38,382 nucleotides of DNA, taken from the NCBI GenBank assembly GCA_002841995.1, contig PHBS01000017.1, forward strand, positions 1 through 38,382, in the 5' to 3' direction. Below are positions 24,671-36,638 of the stretch, one piece after another. Under the pieces are notes generated by a model. The model saw nothing but the letters and a program-made list of their open reading frames with translations, had not been told where the DNA came from and did not search any database. This stretch comes from Chloroflexi bacterium HGW-Chloroflexi-8 (GTDB lineage: Bacteria; Chloroflexota; Anaerolineae; Anaerolineales; Anaerolineaceae). Each line of letters begins with the position of its first letter. Position 1 is the first letter of the stretch. The position numbers and the translations under genes were made by a program.

Positions 24671-25165
24671 TTACTCCGCATTTGAGTCAATATTTGAGTC
24701 AATATTTGAGTCAATATTTGAGTCAATATTCGACTGTACACCAATCATTTGAACATCCAGATAGGATTGTAAGATCACAGTCGCAGCCAAATCATCCATA
24801 TGACCTTTGAGGTTTTTACGCTTAACCCCCATCAACTTTCGGGCAAGCCTAGCTTCATTTGTGCTTCCACTCTCGTCCCAGAGAATCACAGGAATTGTTG
24901 TAAAAGACTTGATCACATCTGCTAATCGTACCGCTTTCCTTCCGGAAGGAGTAATTTCCCCTTCTTCACCCATTGCAAAACCTACAATAATGAATTTCAC
25001 ATCATTCTTTTCTGCGATCGAAACAATTGTTCTTGCATCTTCTTCGCGTTTCACGTGAACTAATACGTTTAACGGATTTGCGATTGTGCCAGTAAGATCA
25101 CTGATTGCCAACCCAATCCTCTTATCTCCAGGATCAATGCCCAATATACGCAAATTCTCATTCAT
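24671..25165 (-). CDS. ruvX: RuvX/YqgF-type Holliday junction resolvase-like nuclease
   Basis: An RNase H-fold nuclease linked to pre-16S rRNA maturation and junction resolution. The 164-residue protein has GIDPGDKRIGLAISD (D11), VGFAMGEEGEITPSGRKA, WDESGSTNEARL and HMDDLAATVILQSYL. The order is normal, although the third motif is usually DERxxTxxA. The last 20 or so residues are a simple (NIDS)n tail made by a 12-bp repeat, absent from ordinary RuvX. Its start overlaps the upstream membrane protein by 8 nt. Confidence 0.92.
   Translation of the reverse strand: MNENLRILGIDPGDKRIGLAISDLTGTIANPLNVLVHVKREEDARTIVSIAEKNDVKFIIVGFAMGEEGEITPSGRKAVRLADVIKSFTTIPVILWDESGSTNEARLARKLMGVKRKNLKGHMDDLAATVILQSYLDVQMIGVQSNIDSNIDSNIDSNIDSNAE
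24681..24728. repeat. 12-bp tandem repeat, four perfect copies, in the 3' end of ruvX
   Basis: Unit TTTGAGTCAATA (plus strand) occurs four times head to tail with no mismatch and a decayed fifth unit continues at 24729. Being a multiple of three it keeps frame and encodes the repeated tetrapeptide NIDS at the C-terminus of RuvX. This is a minisatellite-like tract, not a CRISPR, as there are no spacers. Confidence 0.95.
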
Positions 25166-29140: not shown

Positions 29141-31243
29141 ATGAATTATTTTAATAACCAAACTGAAGTAGCAGAGAAAGCATTAACCAAAAAGGTGTTT
29201 CTGACCGGACCTGCTGGGACTGGAAAGACAACAACCGCAAAAGCATACCTAAACTTGTTGCGAAACAATAAAATATCGGGAAGTAGAATTTTAATATTAG
29301 TACCTCAAAGATCATTAGGACTGGTATACCAAAGATTCATAGATAATTTTGGTGATTTCAACGGTGGCATCATTACGATACAAACCTTAGGTGGTGTTGC
29401 TCAAAGAATGATTCGCCTTTTTTGGCCATTAATTGCCCCAATAACTTCCAAGTTTACTCCCAAAAAACCACCGATTTTCTTGACTCTTGAAACAGCACAG
29501 TATTATCTTAATAGAGTTTGTGAACCTTTCTTCGAAAGAGCTTATTTCGAATCGATCCGGGCAGAAAAACCACGAATACTTTCTCAAATTTTGGATAATC
29601 TTAATAAAGCCGCGGTTGTTGGATTCTCCCATGAAGAAATAAGTGAAAGATTAAAATCTGCTTGGTCGCACGAGCCTGGACATGTCCTGGCTTATGACCA
29701 GGCTCAAGAAATGGCAAATTTATTCCGTGAGTTTTGTTATCAGAACAACTTTTTAGATTTTTCTCTTCAAATCGAAACATTTCAGAAAACCATTTGGCCT
29801 TCGCATTTATGTAAAGAATATCTGACTCACCAATACGATTATTTGATTTACGAAAATTGTGAAGAGGACATTCCAGTATTTCATGATGTTATTCAGGAAT
29901 GGCTTTCAAAATTTATTGGTGGATTGATTATTTTTGATGAAAATGCCGGTTTTCGTTCATTCTTAGGTGCAGATCCGATAAGTGCACAAAGATTTAAAAT
30001 GAATTGCAATGAACAATACCATTTCTCTGATCCAATTCAACAATCAAAAGAAATCTTAACACTTAAGAATCTATTTTCTTCAACGATAAAAAACAATATC
30101 ATCTATGAGCCAAAAACTGACTTTCAAAATTCATTAACTGTTGCCTTCAATGCATATTATCCTGAAATGATTGAAAAAATCACAGGTCAGGTTTCCGACC
30201 TGATAGACCAGGGTGTTTCTGCTGGAGATATCGCGATTTTATCACCATTTGTCAGTGATGCACTTCGATTCCAGCTCCAAAACAGGTTTGAAAAAAAGCA
30301 AATTAGATTAACTTCACACCGCCCATCGAGAAGTCTTCGAGAAGAACCTTTAACTCATGTCTTGCTTACATGGGCTAAGATTGCCCATCCAGAATGGCAG
30401 CTTATACCTTCGACATATGATTTGCGTATTGCATTAACCCATTGCATTCAAGGAATGGATCCAATACGTGCAGATTTAATGGTCAGGTCAATTTACCGAC
30501 CAAGAAACGAATTTTGGCTTACTGAAATTGGAACTACAAACCTCGCGTTTCAAGAGCGTATCACGCTCTCATTATGCAATAAATTTCAATTCTTATATGA
30601 TTGGTTATTCAATGCGTTGAATGATCGATCCGATTTAGATGTTTTTATCTCACGATTTTATGGCGAGATATTAACCCAACGCGGATTCGGATTTTCTGAT
30701 AATTTCATTGCTGCAGATGTTACCTCTCGACTCGTCGAATCAATTCAAAAATTCCGTAGGGTTGTTTCTGCTGAGCAGAACCATGACTCAATAAACCTAT
30801 CGAAGGAATACATTAAAACTTTAGAACAAGGAATTATTGCAGCCCTTTATTTAGAAAGTTGGGATAAATCCGAAGAAGATTCTGTTTTTCTCTCGCCAGC
30901 ATACACCTTTTTATTGCAAAATCGTTCGGTGGCTTACCAGTTCTGGATCGATGTCGGAAGTATGGGTTGGTGGCAACGTCTATTGCAACCATTAACACAA
31001 CCATATGTGCTCAGTCGAAATTGGGAAATCGGACGAAAATGGACCGACAACAATGAATTCGAGACCAATCAATTGAATTTGGAAAAACTAATTCAAGGAT
31101 TGTTGAACCGCTGTCAAGAAGGGATATACATTCATTCTACCGGATACAATGAAAGTGGCAATGAAGAAAAAGGACCTCTACTTAAAGCGGTTCAGCGAAT
31201 TCTTCGGATCTCAACAAAACCAATGGAAATTAAAGATGTTTAA
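29141..31243 (+). CDS. AddB-like protein: UvrD-fold with intact P-loop and degenerate Walker B
   Basis: A 700-residue protein with the helicase-like fold of AddB/RexB or RecC-type subunits. Walker A is GPAGTGKTT with K29; ILILVPQRSLGLVY and IITIQTLGGVAQRM follow as in AddB. The Walker B place reads IYENCEED (E238, N239) where an active helicase has DExQD, and the motif III place reads FDENAGFRSFL, so catalysis is probably lost. There is no nuclease domain; that is a separate gene downstream. The first ATG at 29141 is used; an upstream in-frame TTG at 29075 is possible. It overlaps the next gene by 8 nt. Assignment to AddB is by features and context, not by a profile search. Confidence 0.75.
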   Translation: MNYFNNQTEVAEKALTKKVFLTGPAGTGKTTTAKAYLNLLRNNKISGSRILILVPQRSLGLVYQRFIDNFGDFNGGIITIQTLGGVAQRMIRLFWPLIAPITSKFTPKKPPIFLTLETAQYYLNRVCEPFFERAYFESIRAEKPRILSQILDNLNKAAVVGFSHEEISERLKSAWSHEPGHVLAYDQAQEMANLFREFCYQNNFLDFSLQIETFQKTIWPSHLCKEYLTHQYDYLIYENCEEDIPVFHDVIQEWLSKFIGGLIIFDENAGFRSFLGADPISAQRFKMNCNEQYHFSDPIQQSKEILTLKNLFSSTIKNNIIYEPKTDFQNSLTVAFNAYYPEMIEKITGQVSDLIDQGVSAGDIAILSPFVSDALRFQLQNRFEKKQIRLTSHRPSRSLREEPLTHVLLTWAKIAHPEWQLIPSTYDLRIALTHCIQGMDPIRADLMVRSIYRPRNEFWLTEIGTTNLAFQERITLSLCNKFQFLYDWLFNALNDRSDLDVFISRFYGEILTQRGFGFSDNFIAADVTSRLVESIQKFRRVVSAEQNHDSINLSKEYIKTLEQGIIAALYLESWDKSEEDSVFLSPAYTFLLQNRSVAYQFWIDVGSMGWWQRLLQPLTQPYVLSRNWEIGRKWTDNNEFETNQLNLEKLIQGLLNRCQEGIYIHSTGYNESGNEEKGPLLKAVQRILRISTKPMEIKDV

Positions 31244-31871
31244 TCCTAGACCACGACAGGCTGAAGTTTTGAAATTCACCAATGGAAAAATGGGTGTTTC
31301 AGCAGTGCCAGGTTCAGGAAAGACTCAAACGCTTTCATTATTAGCAGCCAACTTAATTTCTCAAGGTTTGATTAAGGACGATCAGGAAATTCTTGTTGTG
31401 ACGCTTGTTAATTCTGCTGTCAATAACTTTTCCAGTCGAATCTCAACCTTTATTCGAGAATTTGGGCTATTACCAAATTTGGGGTACCGAGTATTAACCC
31501 TACATAGCCTGGCTAATCAAATTGTCAGGGAAAGACCGGATCTGGTTGGACTTGATAATAATTTTCAGATTATTGATGAAAGAGAAGGAAACCAAATTCT
31601 CCACTCCGCTGTCGAAAGCTGGATTCAACGTAATAAAGAATTATTATCATCCTGGACAAATGAAAAACATTCGCTAAATGAACCCAAAATTAGTAATGGG
31701 TGGCGGGATGCAATTACATCCATTTCTAAAAGTTTTATACGACAGTCTAAAGATTTTGAGTACACACCACAAAAACTACAGGACAAGATCAAATCATTAA
31801 ACATCAATGACCCTTTCATAAATCTGGGGGTAGAAATCTACCATGATTACCAAAGGGCATTGAATTATTGA
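31236..31871 (+). CDS. Helicase N-terminal fragment, upstream of the in-frame stop
   Basis: Residues 1-211: Q-motif, Walker A P-loop and motif Ia strings (ILVVTLVNSAVNNF) of domain 1A plus part of 1B. It ends YHDYQRALNY before TGA. The ATG at 31236 overlaps the previous stop by 8 nt; an earlier in-frame start at 31149 lies well inside the AddB-like gene. Without domain 2A the fragment cannot be a helicase. Confidence 0.75.
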   Translation: MFNPRPRQAEVLKFTNGKMGVSAVPGSGKTQTLSLLAANLISQGLIKDDQEILVVTLVNSAVNNFSSRISTFIREFGLLPNLGYRVLTLHSLANQIVRERPDLVGLDNNFQIIDEREGNQILHSAVESWIQRNKELLSSWTNEKHSLNEPKISNGWRDAITSISKSFIRQSKDFEYTPQKLQDKIKSLNINDPFINLGVEIYHDYQRALNY

Positions 31872-31877
31872 TCCGCA

Positions 31878-33485
31878 GTGGATTTTGATGATCTGATACG
31901 TTTCACGTTAATGGCATTAAAGAATGACAAAGATTTTTTACAAAGACTACAGTACCGATGGCCATACATACTGGAAGATGAAGCTCAGGATAGCAGCTAT
32001 CTTCAGGAACAAATACTAAAGTTGCTATGCGGTGAAAATGGGAATTGGGTTCGCGTTGGTGATCCCAACCAGGCGATTTACGAGACTTTTACCACTGCCA
32101 GTCCTGAACACCTTAAGAACTTCCTGCTTCAACCGGATGTAATTGCGAAGACGTTACCAAATTCTGGGAGATCAACCCTTTCAATTATTGGTCTTGCAAA
32201 TGAATTAATCAATTGGGTAAATAATGCTCATCCTGTGGAGGAGTTGCGCACATCTTTAACAACACCATTCATTATTCCCACACCACCCGGAGACCCTCAG
32301 CCTAACCCCCAAGACGACCCAAAAGCAATATTTATTTACGATAAGAAAATGTCCGCCACCAAAGAACTTGAAATTATTTCAGATTCTGTCAAAAGGTGGT
32401 TGGATGAGAACCCAAATAAAACAGTGGCAGTTCTTGTTCCCAGAAATGACCGAGGAGCAAAATTAGTTGAAATTTTGCAAAAGAACAGTATTCCTTATAT
32501 TGAGTTGCTTCAATCCAGCCAATCAACGAGGGAGACTGCGAAAATTCTTTCTGAAATCCTGCGATTTATTGAAAACCCAACACTCACAGTCAATATTGTT
32601 CGTGTTTTTTCTTCCTTTTGCGAGATCTTTTTCAATATGGAAAATGTCAATAAAGATGAAATGATTCAACTGATGAAATCATGTAGTTTTCTAGAAGATT
32701 ATTTGTACCCACGCCTTCTTAGTGATTGGATAGATCGCATTGCCATTAATTCACCGGATCACGAGGAAAAAATCCTTCCAAAATTAAAATTATTCCGGGA
32801 ATATTTAAATCGATGGCTGGAGGCTGCAGATTTACCAATCCATCAATTACTTATTACCCTCGGGCAGGATCTCTTCAAACAACAAACTGAGTTGGCCTTA
32901 ACGCATAAATTAGCTTTATTACTAGAACAATCTGCTCACATTCATCCAGATTGGCAATTACCAGATTTTGTAAATGAACTTACATTAATTGCTGACAACA
33001 GAAGAAAGATTTTTGGGTTTACGGATGAAGATACGGGTTTTGATCCGGATCTTTATAAAGGAAAAGTTGTGGTTGCTACATACCATAAAGCAAAAGGCCT
33101 TGAATGGGATCGGGTTTACTTGACTTCAGTCAACAACTACGATTTTCCTTCAGCACAAAAAAGTGATGATTCCATCAGTGAGAAATACTTTTATAGATAT
33201 CCCTACAATTTGGAAGCGGAGATCATTTCCAAACTAAAAGCCTTGATAAATGAAGATGTCGAAAGTCTCTATTTAGATTATGGAGCTGCAACTGAGAAAT
33301 CCAGAATTGATTATGGATCTGAGAGACTACGATTGTTATACGTTGGAATTACCCGTGCAAAAAAAGAGCTGATCATCACTTGGAATACCGGCGATACGCA
33401 TCACAGCAACTCGTCTCAACTCACCTCATCCATCCCATTTCTTGCTTTAAAAACTTATCTGGAGACGAAAAATTATGGAAATTAA
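31878..33485 (+). CDS. Helicase C-terminal fragment, downstream of the in-frame stop
   Basis: The remaining helicase, from AVDFDDLIRFTLMA onward, with motifs II to VI. A GTG at 31878, two codons after the TGA, is the only early start; I see no ribosome-binding site, so independent translation is doubtful. It overlaps the nuclease start by 11 nt. Confidence 0.7.
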   Translation: MDFDDLIRFTLMALKNDKDFLQRLQYRWPYILEDEAQDSSYLQEQILKLLCGENGNWVRVGDPNQAIYETFTTASPEHLKNFLLQPDVIAKTLPNSGRSTLSIIGLANELINWVNNAHPVEELRTSLTTPFIIPTPPGDPQPNPQDDPKAIFIYDKKMSATKELEIISDSVKRWLDENPNKTVAVLVPRNDRGAKLVEILQKNSIPYIELLQSSQSTRETAKILSEILRFIENPTLTVNIVRVFSSFCEIFFNMENVNKDEMIQLMKSCSFLEDYLYPRLLSDWIDRIAINSPDHEEKILPKLKLFREYLNRWLEAADLPIHQLLITLGQDLFKQQTELALTHKLALLLEQSAHIHPDWQLPDFVNELTLIADNRRKIFGFTDEDTGFDPDLYKGKVVVATYHKAKGLEWDRVYLTSVNNYDFPSAQKSDDSISEKYFYRYPYNLEAEIISKLKALINEDVESLYLDYGAATEKSRIDYGSERLRLLYVGITRAKKELIITWNTGDTHHSNSSQLTSSIPFLALKTYLETKNYGN

Positions 33486-34299
33486 CAATCAATTCACCTT
33501 CAGTGCATACAAATTGCAGGATTATTTGGATTGTGAGAGAAGATTTGAACTTAAGTATTTATTAAAACAACAATGGCCAGCCATCCAGTCCGAACCGATT
33601 CATGAATTAGAACAACAAATGCAATTCGGTCAACAATTTCATTTGTTTGCCCAGCAATTTTTTTCCAATATCCCAACTGAAGAGATTCAAAAACAGGTCG
33701 ATAATGAGACTTTAAGTTTTTGGTGGGGTAATTTTGTTCCTTTTGCCAAAAGTTTATTAACTAAGGAATACTTTGCCGAGCGTAAAATTGGGATCAAACT
33801 GAGTAATACGCGTTTTATTGCGATATTAGATCTTCTGGTGATCGACAAGAAAAATACCTATACAATCATTGACTGGAAAACGAATAAGAAGAAACCTTCG
33901 AGTCAACAAATTAAGAATTCAATTCAATCCAGGTTATACCCTTTAGTTCTTTTTCTTTCCGAGAATGAACGGATTTCTCCAAATAAGATAAGCCCTGACC
34001 AAATCGAGATGATTTATTGGTTTGCTAATTTTCCAGACAAAATGGAAACATTTAAGTATTCAAATTACCAATTCGAAGAAGATTTGAGTTTTTTCCAGGA
34101 GATTATTCAAAAAATTTCCTTAAAAAAAACTGGTGAATTCTTAAAAACGACCAGGACTCTATTATGTAAGTACTGCCAGTACCGTTCTCTATGCGAAAGA
34201 GGAACAACCCCAGGTTCATTGGATAATCCGGAAGATGAAATTTGGAATGAAGAAATATTGGATATCGATTTTTCGCAAATTGGTGAAGTTGAATTTTAA
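33475..34299 (+). CDS. RecB/Cas4/AddB-type PD-(D/E)XK nuclease with an iron-sulfur cysteine set
   Basis: A 274-residue nuclease. The active site is D119 in ILDLL and D133-W-K135 in IIDWKTNKK, the D-(D/E)xK pattern of RecB-like nucleases. Four cysteines, C20 near the N-terminus (YLDCERRF) and C231, C234, C240 at the C-terminus (CKYCQYRSLC), match the spacing of the 4Fe-4S cluster in AddB, Cas4 and related nucleases. It overlaps the helicase by 11 nt and its stop overlaps the recJ start (TAATG). This would be the nuclease of the split AddAB-like machine; a stand-alone Cas4-like role is unlikely as no cas genes are present. Confidence 0.85.
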   Translation: MEINNQFTFSAYKLQDYLDCERRFELKYLLKQQWPAIQSEPIHELEQQMQFGQQFHLFAQQFFSNIPTEEIQKQVDNETLSFWWGNFVPFAKSLLTKEYFAERKIGIKLSNTRFIAILDLLVIDKKNTYTIIDWKTNKKKPSSQQIKNSIQSRLYPLVLFLSENERISPNKISPDQIEMIYWFANFPDKMETFKYSNYQFEEDLSFFQEIIQKISLKKTGEFLKTTRTLLCKYCQYRSLCERGTTPGSLDNPEDEIWNEEILDIDFSQIGEVEF

Positions 34300-36638
34300 T
34301 GACAAATCTAATAGAGTGGTCACCAAAACCCAAAAAAGAAGTTCCGCAAGAGATTGAAAAGCTATTTCCCAATAAATGGGTGCAACAACGATTTGTAGAG
34401 CTGCATTTGACAAATTCGAAGACTGCAGAAGCATTTATCAATCCATCACTTTACATTCCCACAAACCCGGTTGAATTGCCAGATTTAGAAAAAGGTGCAC
34501 AGAGAATCAAGAAAGCATTATTGAACAAAGAAGAGATTGGCATTTGGGGGGATTTTGATGTAGATGGCCAAACATCTACAATTTTACTAGTTCAAGCATT
34601 AAGAATTTTGGGTGCAAATCCTCGGTATCATATACCAAATCGTGATAAGGAATCTCACGGCATCCGATTGCATAACCTAAAAGATTTTGTGTCAGTTCCA
34701 ATAAAACTTTTAATTACTTGCGATACGGGAGTGAGTGAAAATGCGTCAATAGAATTCGCCAATAGCAAAGACATTGATGTCATAATCACAGATCATCACA
34801 GCCTACCAGAATTATTGCCGAATGCTTATGCTGTCATAAATCCGAAAAGATTACCTTCTGAACACGCATTAAATAAATTGGCAGGGGTAGGTACTGCCTA
34901 TAAATTAATGGAATATGTATTCAGACTCTTCAATATAGAAGAGGAAAAAGGCCGCTTACTAGATTTGGTTGCCTTGGGAACGATTGCAGATATTGCAGAA
35001 ATCAACCCGGAAAACCATTTTTTGGTTCAATCCGGTCTTGAAAAACTAAAAAGATCTGAGCGTTTATTACTTAAAGAAATTTTTATTATCAAAGAAATTA
35101 ATCCCGATTTGCTCAACGAAACTCATATTTCTTTTTCAATTGCACCATTATTGAACGCATTAGGAAGACTGGATGATGCCAATTCTGTTGTTGAACATTT
35201 CCTAACGGATGATTTACAAAAAGCCCGTATTTTTGCGAATATCCTCGAGAATCTTAATGAAAAAAGAAAGCTTATCACTGAACAAATTACTGAAGCCGCA
35301 TTAGCAATTTTACAAAGGGATGAATTAGAACAAAACCAGGAAGCAATTGTTCTTCATCATTCGGATTGGCATCCTGGGGTTTTGGGAATTGTCGCAAGTC
35401 AATTAGTTGAAATCTTCAAAAAACCTACGATTTTATTATCGGGTTTTCAGGATCAAGTTATTCGGGGATCTGCGAGATCAGTTGATGGGATTAATATATT
35501 TGAAGCAATACGTGAATCAAGTCAAATGTTGACGCAATATGGTGGACATGCCATGGCAGCCGGGATTTCCCTTCGGTATGATGCCTTAGCATTATTTAAA
35601 AAGGAATTTAATAAATCAATCCAAAAACAAATACAGAACAAGAAAATCTCCCAAGAAATTTTGGTAGATGGATTTTTGGAATTGGATCAATTAAACATCG
35701 ATTTTGTTAACCAGTTGAATATTTTGGCTCCTTTTGGACCAGGGAATCCACCGTTTATTTTTGCCACCAGAAATATCAGCATAAACAAATCTACAACATT
35801 TGGTAAAGCCAGGAACCATATCCGATTCAAAGTGTCGGATTCTACTAATATTTCATTGGATCTACTTTGGTGGAAAGGAGCAAATAAATCCATTCCAGAA
35901 TCAATGGTTGATATTATCTACCGACCCGGGAAAAATTCCTATAAAGGCAAAGATGAGCTTCAAATTGAAGTCATCGAAATGCAACCTTCTGAAGAGGTTT
36001 TAGAAGAATTGCAATCCGCCAGCCAAAAACTAGAAATAATCGATTTACGTTCTGAAGATTTCAATCTTCAGGCTCTATTAAATAACTATCAGGACTTGGT
36101 CATTTGGGCTGAGGGTTTGAGTGAAAATAAAAGATATCGATATGAGACCCGGATAAATTTACATCCCTCAAACGCGCTCCTTATTTATTCTTGCCCACCA
36201 AGTTTAGTGGATATTGCCAAAGCCTGGAAAATCGTAAATCCCAAAATATTGGTATTAGGAAAAATGATGCCGGAGATGGATTCAATGAATTCACTGCTGA
36301 TGTCTATTTCTGGAATGATAAATTTAGCGGTAAATCGAAGAGCAGGAGTTTTTGATATTCACAAAGCTGCAGCTGCAACCGGGCATCGCGTTAAAACAAT
36401 TAATACTGTACTGAGATATCTTTGTTCAAAGGGGAAAATCAGTATAAAGGAACATCCGGACACGGAATTAACCATTTCTTTTGGGGGAATTGAAAACGTA
36501 AATCAAGCCAGCCAATACGAGAATTATTTACGATTCCTCATTCAAGAGACAATTTCTTTTCGAAAATGGTATCAAAAAGTAGACACTTCACGATTAATGA
36601 GTGAAATTTATGAATTATTCTCTATCGACAAAAAATAA
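34299..36638 (+). CDS. recJ: Single-stranded-DNA-specific exonuclease RecJ
   Basis: RecJ digests single-stranded DNA 5' to 3' in recombination and mismatch repair. The 779-residue protein has DFDVDGQTST at 85-94 (motif I), DHH at 165-167, and GRLDDANSVVEHF, then DHHA1-type motifs HSDWHPGVLGIVASQLVE and YGGHAMAAGISL. The last 200 residues hold an OB-like part and a region ending in a winged-helix-like segment (AATGHRVKTINTVLRYLCSKG), longer than short RecJs. The ATG at 34299 shares one base with the preceding stop. Confidence 0.94.
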   Translation: MTNLIEWSPKPKKEVPQEIEKLFPNKWVQQRFVELHLTNSKTAEAFINPSLYIPTNPVELPDLEKGAQRIKKALLNKEEIGIWGDFDVDGQTSTILLVQALRILGANPRYHIPNRDKESHGIRLHNLKDFVSVPIKLLITCDTGVSENASIEFANSKDIDVIITDHHSLPELLPNAYAVINPKRLPSEHALNKLAGVGTAYKLMEYVFRLFNIEEEKGRLLDLVALGTIADIAEINPENHFLVQSGLEKLKRSERLLLKEIFIIKEINPDLLNETHISFSIAPLLNALGRLDDANSVVEHFLTDDLQKARIFANILENLNEKRKLITEQITEAALAILQRDELEQNQEAIVLHHSDWHPGVLGIVASQLVEIFKKPTILLSGFQDQVIRGSARSVDGINIFEAIRESSQMLTQYGGHAMAAGISLRYDALALFKKEFNKSIQKQIQNKKISQEILVDGFLELDQLNIDFVNQLNILAPFGPGNPPFIFATRNISINKSTTFGKARNHIRFKVSDSTNISLDLLWWKGANKSIPESMVDIIYRPGKNSYKGKDELQIEVIEMQPSEEVLEELQSASQKLEIIDLRSEDFNLQALLNNYQDLVIWAEGLSENKRYRYETRINLHPSNALLIYSCPPSLVDIAKAWKIVNPKILVLGKMMPEMDSMNSLLMSISGMINLAVNRRAGVFDIHKAAAATGHRVKTINTVLRYLCSKGKISIKEHPDTELTISFGGIENVNQASQYENYLRFLIQETISFRKWYQKVDTSRLMSEIYELFSIDKK

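Follow-up and report, generated by a model that had tools for sequence, protein, structure and literature searches.

A single in-frame TGA interrupts an otherwise normal UvrD-like helicase gene in the window, the whole stretch of 38,382 nucleotides that was analysed and to which all positions refer unless another contig is named. The explanation we favour, with a probability of about 65%, is a genuine and very recent nonsense mutation that arose in one lineage or in the sampled population. The TGA looks ordinary in kind, with no special decoding trick, and we infer that the base is real in the organism.

The interrupted helicase gene

Reading of the sequence places the TGA at 31869-31871 in frame inside one gene (Table 1). 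The open frame before it extends from 31149 to 31871 and the frame after it remains open to a TAA at 33483-33485; the start codon, ATG 31236, was picked at the point where homology in relatives sets in. The first piece matches positions 3-180 of the Pfam UvrD-helicase profile (PF00580) and the second piece matches positions 185-266, followed by UvrD_C. Matches to UvrD-helicase and UvrD_C exceed the gathering scores in both pieces, with the motifs in order, and the two pieces are one helicase domain cut in two. The Walker A sequence of the first piece is AVPGSGKT, TLHSLA occupies codons 88-93 and DEAQD codons 248-252. We take the last two to be motifs Ib and II; the motif names given to this gene (Q-like, Ia, Ib and II-VI) are our own assignments. 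A search of the genome with the helicase DNA returned a single copy, in an assembly that is a draft of 256 contigs and 93% complete.

The protein shares the SF1A domains and motifs of PcrA, Rep and UvrD, yet falls far below their equivalog cut-offs in NCBIfam, none of which is reached. The best matches are pcrA (147.6 bits against a cut-off of 911.2) and rep, and addA_Gpos scores 83.7 bits against 707.65. With PADLOC the top matches of the second piece were GajB models, at 104 bits, as expected of UvrD-like helicases generally; a GajA-like match was absent among the three proteins scanned.

Table 1. Features of the interrupted helicase gene and of its neighbours, with motif names as we take them to apply.
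Feature	Positions	Strand	Evidence
Upstream partner gene, AddB/AdnB-like SF1 ATPase lacking a nuclease domain	29141-31243	+	Profiles, alignment, model
UvrD-like SF1A helicase gene, interrupted, approximately 750 codons	31236-33485	+	Profile matches, alignment with relatives
Helicase first piece, with the Q-like motif, Walker A and motifs Ia and Ib in 211 codons	31236-31868	+	
In-frame TGA, codon 212 from ATG 31236, after motif Ib and ahead of the VDFDDL stretch that precedes motif II	31869-31871	+	
Helicase second piece, 537 codons; VDFDDL, motif II (DEAQD), III, IV, V and VI; no further stop	31872-33482	+	
GTG, closest candidate restart codon, 6 bases past the TGA	31878-31880	+	
RecB/Cas4-type PD-(D/E)XK nuclease, separate, four invariant cysteines	33475-34299	+	PDDEXK_1, 97.8 bits, cut-off 22
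RecJ single-strand exonuclease	34299-36638	+	TIGR00644, 482.1 bits, curated cut-off 396.9

The helicase in relatives

In the 29 aligned relatives, which are the best-scoring genomes of the family set, the helicase is one open frame of 746-877 codons from stop to stop, the longest ending at a contig edge. At the position of the TGA, 28 of them encode arginine and one serine; none has a stop. All seven same-genus relatives have an open helicase gene with arginine at this codon. Their identity to the second part of the protein is 58-64%, and no strain closer than approximately 64% protein identity was found. The original prediction held that an in-frame TGA at codon 212 splits one helicase whose motifs are intact, and the frames, the Pfam matches and the open frames of the 29 relatives confirm it; the comparison of relatives at codon 212 that it proposed has thus returned a sense codon in every case and a shared stop in none.

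With the source genome counted, the helicase is present in 135 of 147 family genomes at E 1e-30 or better. Internal stops were flagged in three rows of this set, those of the source genome (TGA), G030 (TAG) and G025 (TAA). Inspection leaves two interrupted genes among the 135, in the source genome and in G030, at different sites. The TAG of G030 (G030:C82:28944-31157; L051 945-3164) lies before motif VI, with homology resuming beyond it, and may be a real mutation, under the same reservation as the TGA of the source genome. The TAA of G025 was ruled out as an interruption, being a natural gene end with a second stop behind it, and the two-piece helicase of G124 was not counted, as undetermined bases separate the pieces. 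When 151 genomes were sampled evenly across the phylum, 16 had the helicase at E 1e-40, all from the same class, and among these only the copy of the source genome carries a stop flag. No stop is flagged in the upstream partner gene in any of the 136 genomes where it occurs; in G123 this AddB-like gene was found in three pieces.

Age of the break and quality of the surrounding sequence

A stop in frame at a codon that is sense in the orthologues is what a pseudogene would show, and the helicase gene is a candidate for one. It resembles nonsense-mutated bacterial pseudogenes in its single in-frame stop, in having intact orthologues in all seven same-genus relatives and in carrying no other damage as yet; we note no known difference, the break in the source genome being very young. 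Relative-rate counts, for which G001 served as the sister genome, gave 10-21 own changes in the first half, compared with 16-20 in the sister, and 38-47 compared with 44-50 in the second. With five outgroups neither half showed an excess of changes (no p below 0.13), and identity to the same-genus relatives is similar in both halves. The 537 codons downstream of the TGA offer 254 single-base routes to a new stop, not one of which has been taken. Were this second part neutral and no longer translated, the break would date back less than approximately 0.035 substitutions per site (95% limit under a uniform substitution model). By comparison, 61% of third codon positions differ between the gene and that of the nearest relative; pairwise dS is saturated and NG86 returned no value, hence no dN/dS figure is given. 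Since both halves have kept to the rate of the sister genome and no further stop has arisen in 537 codons, the break is, on these sequence comparisons, judged to be very young.

Thirty-four genes of the window have a sense-strand counterpart in 40 kb of G001, and the helicase alone among them has a mid-gene stop. The comparison covered sense matches, stops in antisense matches being left out, and stops in the sense matches of o14, o24, o38 and o52 were discounted as they lie upstream of the starts of those genes. A lone mid-gene stop fits a base error as well as it fits a mutation. A codon-usage scan for stops within coding sequence gave no usable signal and missed the target stop itself; the hits it produced across 194,902 bases from sampled contigs were therefore set aside. 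Elsewhere in the window, a protein encoded on the minus strand (24671-25165), presumably RuvX, ends in tandem Ser-Asn-Ile-Asp copies.

Genetic code and tRNAs

Release factor RF2 is present above its curated cut-off, and among 32 other window genes TGA is the terminator of 5. These 32 intact genes were picked as open frames, so that the list shows how stops are used but cannot reveal interruptions. Genome-wide, no internal stop was seen in 116 ABC-transporter domain matches (150 of 188 candidates scored). Neither many internal TGA codons nor a missing RF2, the marks of genome-wide TGA reassignment looked for, was observed.

The general tRNA model identified 41 tRNAs, none with a TCA anticodon (150 of 266 candidates scored), in a list that is incomplete: it holds no Ala, Ile, Asn or His tRNA and it also missed a tRNA-Sec. 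The latter is located on contig C15 (L144, G000:C15:25024-25116, minus strand), scores 69.1 bits against a cut-off of 47 and has the anticodon TCA according to ARAGORN; its surroundings contain 10 open frames of at least 150 codons. With this tRNA in the genome, selenoproteins may be made. A single tRNA-Trp was found; its anticodon stem has five pairs and, by our own reading of its sequence, it carries A9 and G24. In the available part of PMC13092985, a tRNA-Trp type with a four-pair anticodon stem, linked to UGA reading, and an A9C/G24A type are discussed; the tRNA-Trp of the source genome is of neither type. A standard genetic code is supported, with the reservation that a tRNA-Sec is present. 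The original prediction had argued for a standard code from TGA ending cinA, malQ and the lyase gene; reading of the gene ends shows that it does terminate all three, and RF2, the use of TGA and the absence of stops in the ABC domains agree with its conclusion.

Origin of the stop codon

Several questions should be addressed in accounting for the TGA. Is the base real? Could two working proteins be made from the gene? Could the codon be read as sense? The main rival to a nonsense mutation, unlikely though to be taken seriously, is that the draft consensus has taken up a wrong base, or the variant of a minority strain, and so hides a gene that is intact in the organism. A wrong base call would look alike in a draft of 256 contigs, 93% complete; the relatives have Arg codons at the site, so one wrong base could suffice, and the gene is otherwise evolving like a working gene. 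Against this the sequence is clean elsewhere, with no internal stop in the ABC domain matches and no mid-gene stop in the 33 other window genes that have a counterpart in G001, although a single error would still be compatible with such a record. Improbable by comparison is a split helicase, in which translation terminates at the TGA and restarts at the nearby GTG, the fragments pairing into a working enzyme. The restart codon is only 6 bases past the stop and the second piece would retain motifs II to VI. PcrA is present in the PDB as separate 'subunit' chains (1qhh_A, 167 residues; 1qhh_B, 273 residues), and the matches place the break of 1qhh approximately 20 residues upstream of the TGA site, which suggests that a cut in this region of the helicase may be accommodated in the folded protein. 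However, inspection by eye found no Shine-Dalgarno-like sequence at the usual distance from the GTG, the sole purine-rich stretch seen upstream being an AAGGG approximately 20 bases off, and none of the 29 aligned relatives is split at this site; a split helicase would be an accident and no evolved split. The distance also counts somewhat against it: the part of PMC10666635 available describes a restart efficiency that drops steeply with distance and is nearly nil at approximately 20 bases, on which 6 bases are unfavourable, yet compatible. That two co-translated fragments might still form a complex with the separate nuclease and the AddB-like partner encoded alongside, extending the modular splitting of the cluster, is a conjecture to which we attach very little weight.

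Basal UGA misreading occurs in bacteria, and the residue at the site is variable, serine in one relative, so leaky or programmed readthrough of the TGA might yield a small amount of full-length helicase. We consider this very improbable. The base following the stop (+4) is T, as it is in 3 of the 5 TGA-ended genes of the window, and according to the available part of PMC5289835 a T after the stop lowers readthrough in E. coli. The tRNA-Trp has its five-pair anticodon stem with A9 and G24, and the stop is conserved in none of the aligned relatives. The RNA 3′ of the TGA folds no better than shuffled sequences (z +1.08), as do shorter stretches (z +0.50, +1.00 and +0.56). A literature search on readthrough together with MAG pseudogenes found nothing. 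Insertion of selenocysteine at the TGA needs considering as the genome has a tRNA-Sec with the matching anticodon, but this, or the insertion of another residue through a changed code, is the least probable of the readings. Folding against shuffles revealed no stable SECIS-like stem-loop directly 3′ of the TGA; the relatives encode Arg or Ser, never Cys, and the site is outside the catalytic motifs. A changed code is further opposed by RF2, by the use of TGA as a terminator and by the lack of a TCA anticodon in the incomplete general-model list. Of the three origins offered by the original prediction, a strain-level mutation and a sequencing or assembly error are the best two, whilst leaky readthrough that limits helicase levels finds no support in the relatives, the +4 base, the full tRNA-Trp stem or the unstructured downstream RNA.

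Consequences of the interruption

If a nonsense mutation is the origin, translation would stop at codon 212, past motif Ib, and the resulting fragment, devoid of motifs II to VI, would be unable to act as a helicase. From the known SF1 mechanism and the missing motifs we infer a loss of helicase function. The neighbouring ATPase, nuclease and RecJ genes are themselves open. The ATG of the helicase gene is inside the end of the upstream gene, whose stop is at 31241-31243, the nuclease ATG (33475) is inside the end of the helicase gene, and the RecJ start shares one base with the nuclease stop codon, the final base of the latter. The overlap of the two halves with the flanking genes is as originally described and, since the genes overlap, a polar effect of the TGA is possible. 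The further claim, that loss of the helicase would hit the whole repair block, holds only to that extent; the flanking genes are open and other helicases are encoded elsewhere in the genome.

Those helicases are an AddAB-like pair on contig C228, consisting of an AddB-like protein of 1030 residues with PDDEXK_1 and an AddA-like protein of 1106 residues, neither of which reaches its NCBIfam equivalog cut-off, and a PcrA-like helicase of 827 residues on C75, for which pcrA scores 732.5 bits against the cut-off of 911.2 with a run of undetermined residues lowering the matchable length. With both in the genome, loss of the interrupted helicase would plausibly be tolerated. The apparent absence of the gene from some family members and a precedent in Thermus thermophilus HB27 add to the plausibility. 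The available part of PMC9751324 describes HB27 ppol mutants with spontaneous addA frameshifts and one addAB deletion, addAB mutants being viable. The likeness is in the loss of a helicase-nuclease subunit, viable in that organism; the losses in HB27 are frameshifts or a deletion in ppol mutants, whereas the source genome, that of an environmental bacterium, has a stop in a separate, additional system.

A conserved cluster with a separate nuclease

The order AddB-like ATPase, helicase, nuclease, RecJ is found in all 25 loci read from relatives, some of which are cut at one end, for example L051 and L080; in L074 approximately 1.1 kb separate the nuclease from RecJ. The model of the AddB-like protein has a mean pLDDT of 86.4, and the consensus of the alignment (A1, 22 sequences) retains the Walker A of this protein. 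In Foldseek the lowest E-values for the model belong to UvrD, Rep and PcrA chains, with TM 0.52-0.58 by query length, and higher TM values are reached with the B chains of AdnAB (0.60-0.70) and AddAB (0.58-0.61), which we take to be AdnB and AddB, respectively. By sequence profile the protein matches the PDB weakly, the best E-value being 0.00034 (PcrA). Pfam gave no nuclease-domain match in the AddB-like ATPase or in the helicase. In the separate nuclease C20, C231, C234 and C240 are invariant in 23 sequences (alignment A2), and it also has D, D-x-K, Q and Y residues, presumably those typical of RecB-type nuclease motifs.

Across the family the helicase is unmatched in 12 of 147 genomes, the partner in 11 and both together in eight (G060, G066, G067, G068, G078, G081, G120 and G121). 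Several of these eight are incomplete, yet G120 is 97% complete in six contigs, and some family members appear to do without the system. The joint absence suggests that the helicase and its AddB-like partner may work as a unit.

The cluster looks like an AddAB/AdnAB-type machine, putatively of three proteins, with the nuclease as a separate subunit. It has in common with AddAB and AdnAB two SF1 ATPases and a four-cysteine RecB-type nuclease encoded together; it differs in that the nuclease is a protein of its own, both ATPase genes being free of a nuclease domain. PMC5704561 describes UvrD and Cas4-like genes that share an operon in Clostridiales without being fused, and the likeness is that an unfused helicase adjoins a pfam12705 nuclease; an AddB-like partner or RecJ is not mentioned in the available part of that paper. 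In the literature searched, a partial look, there was no description of the present cluster.

The stop itself matters little, other than as a caution against reading recoding into single genes of draft genomes. Its surroundings matter more: the genome has this conserved Anaerolineae cluster in addition to a conventional AddAB-like pair and, if the cluster encodes a three-protein machine, the helicase and nuclease functions could be studied as separable subunits.
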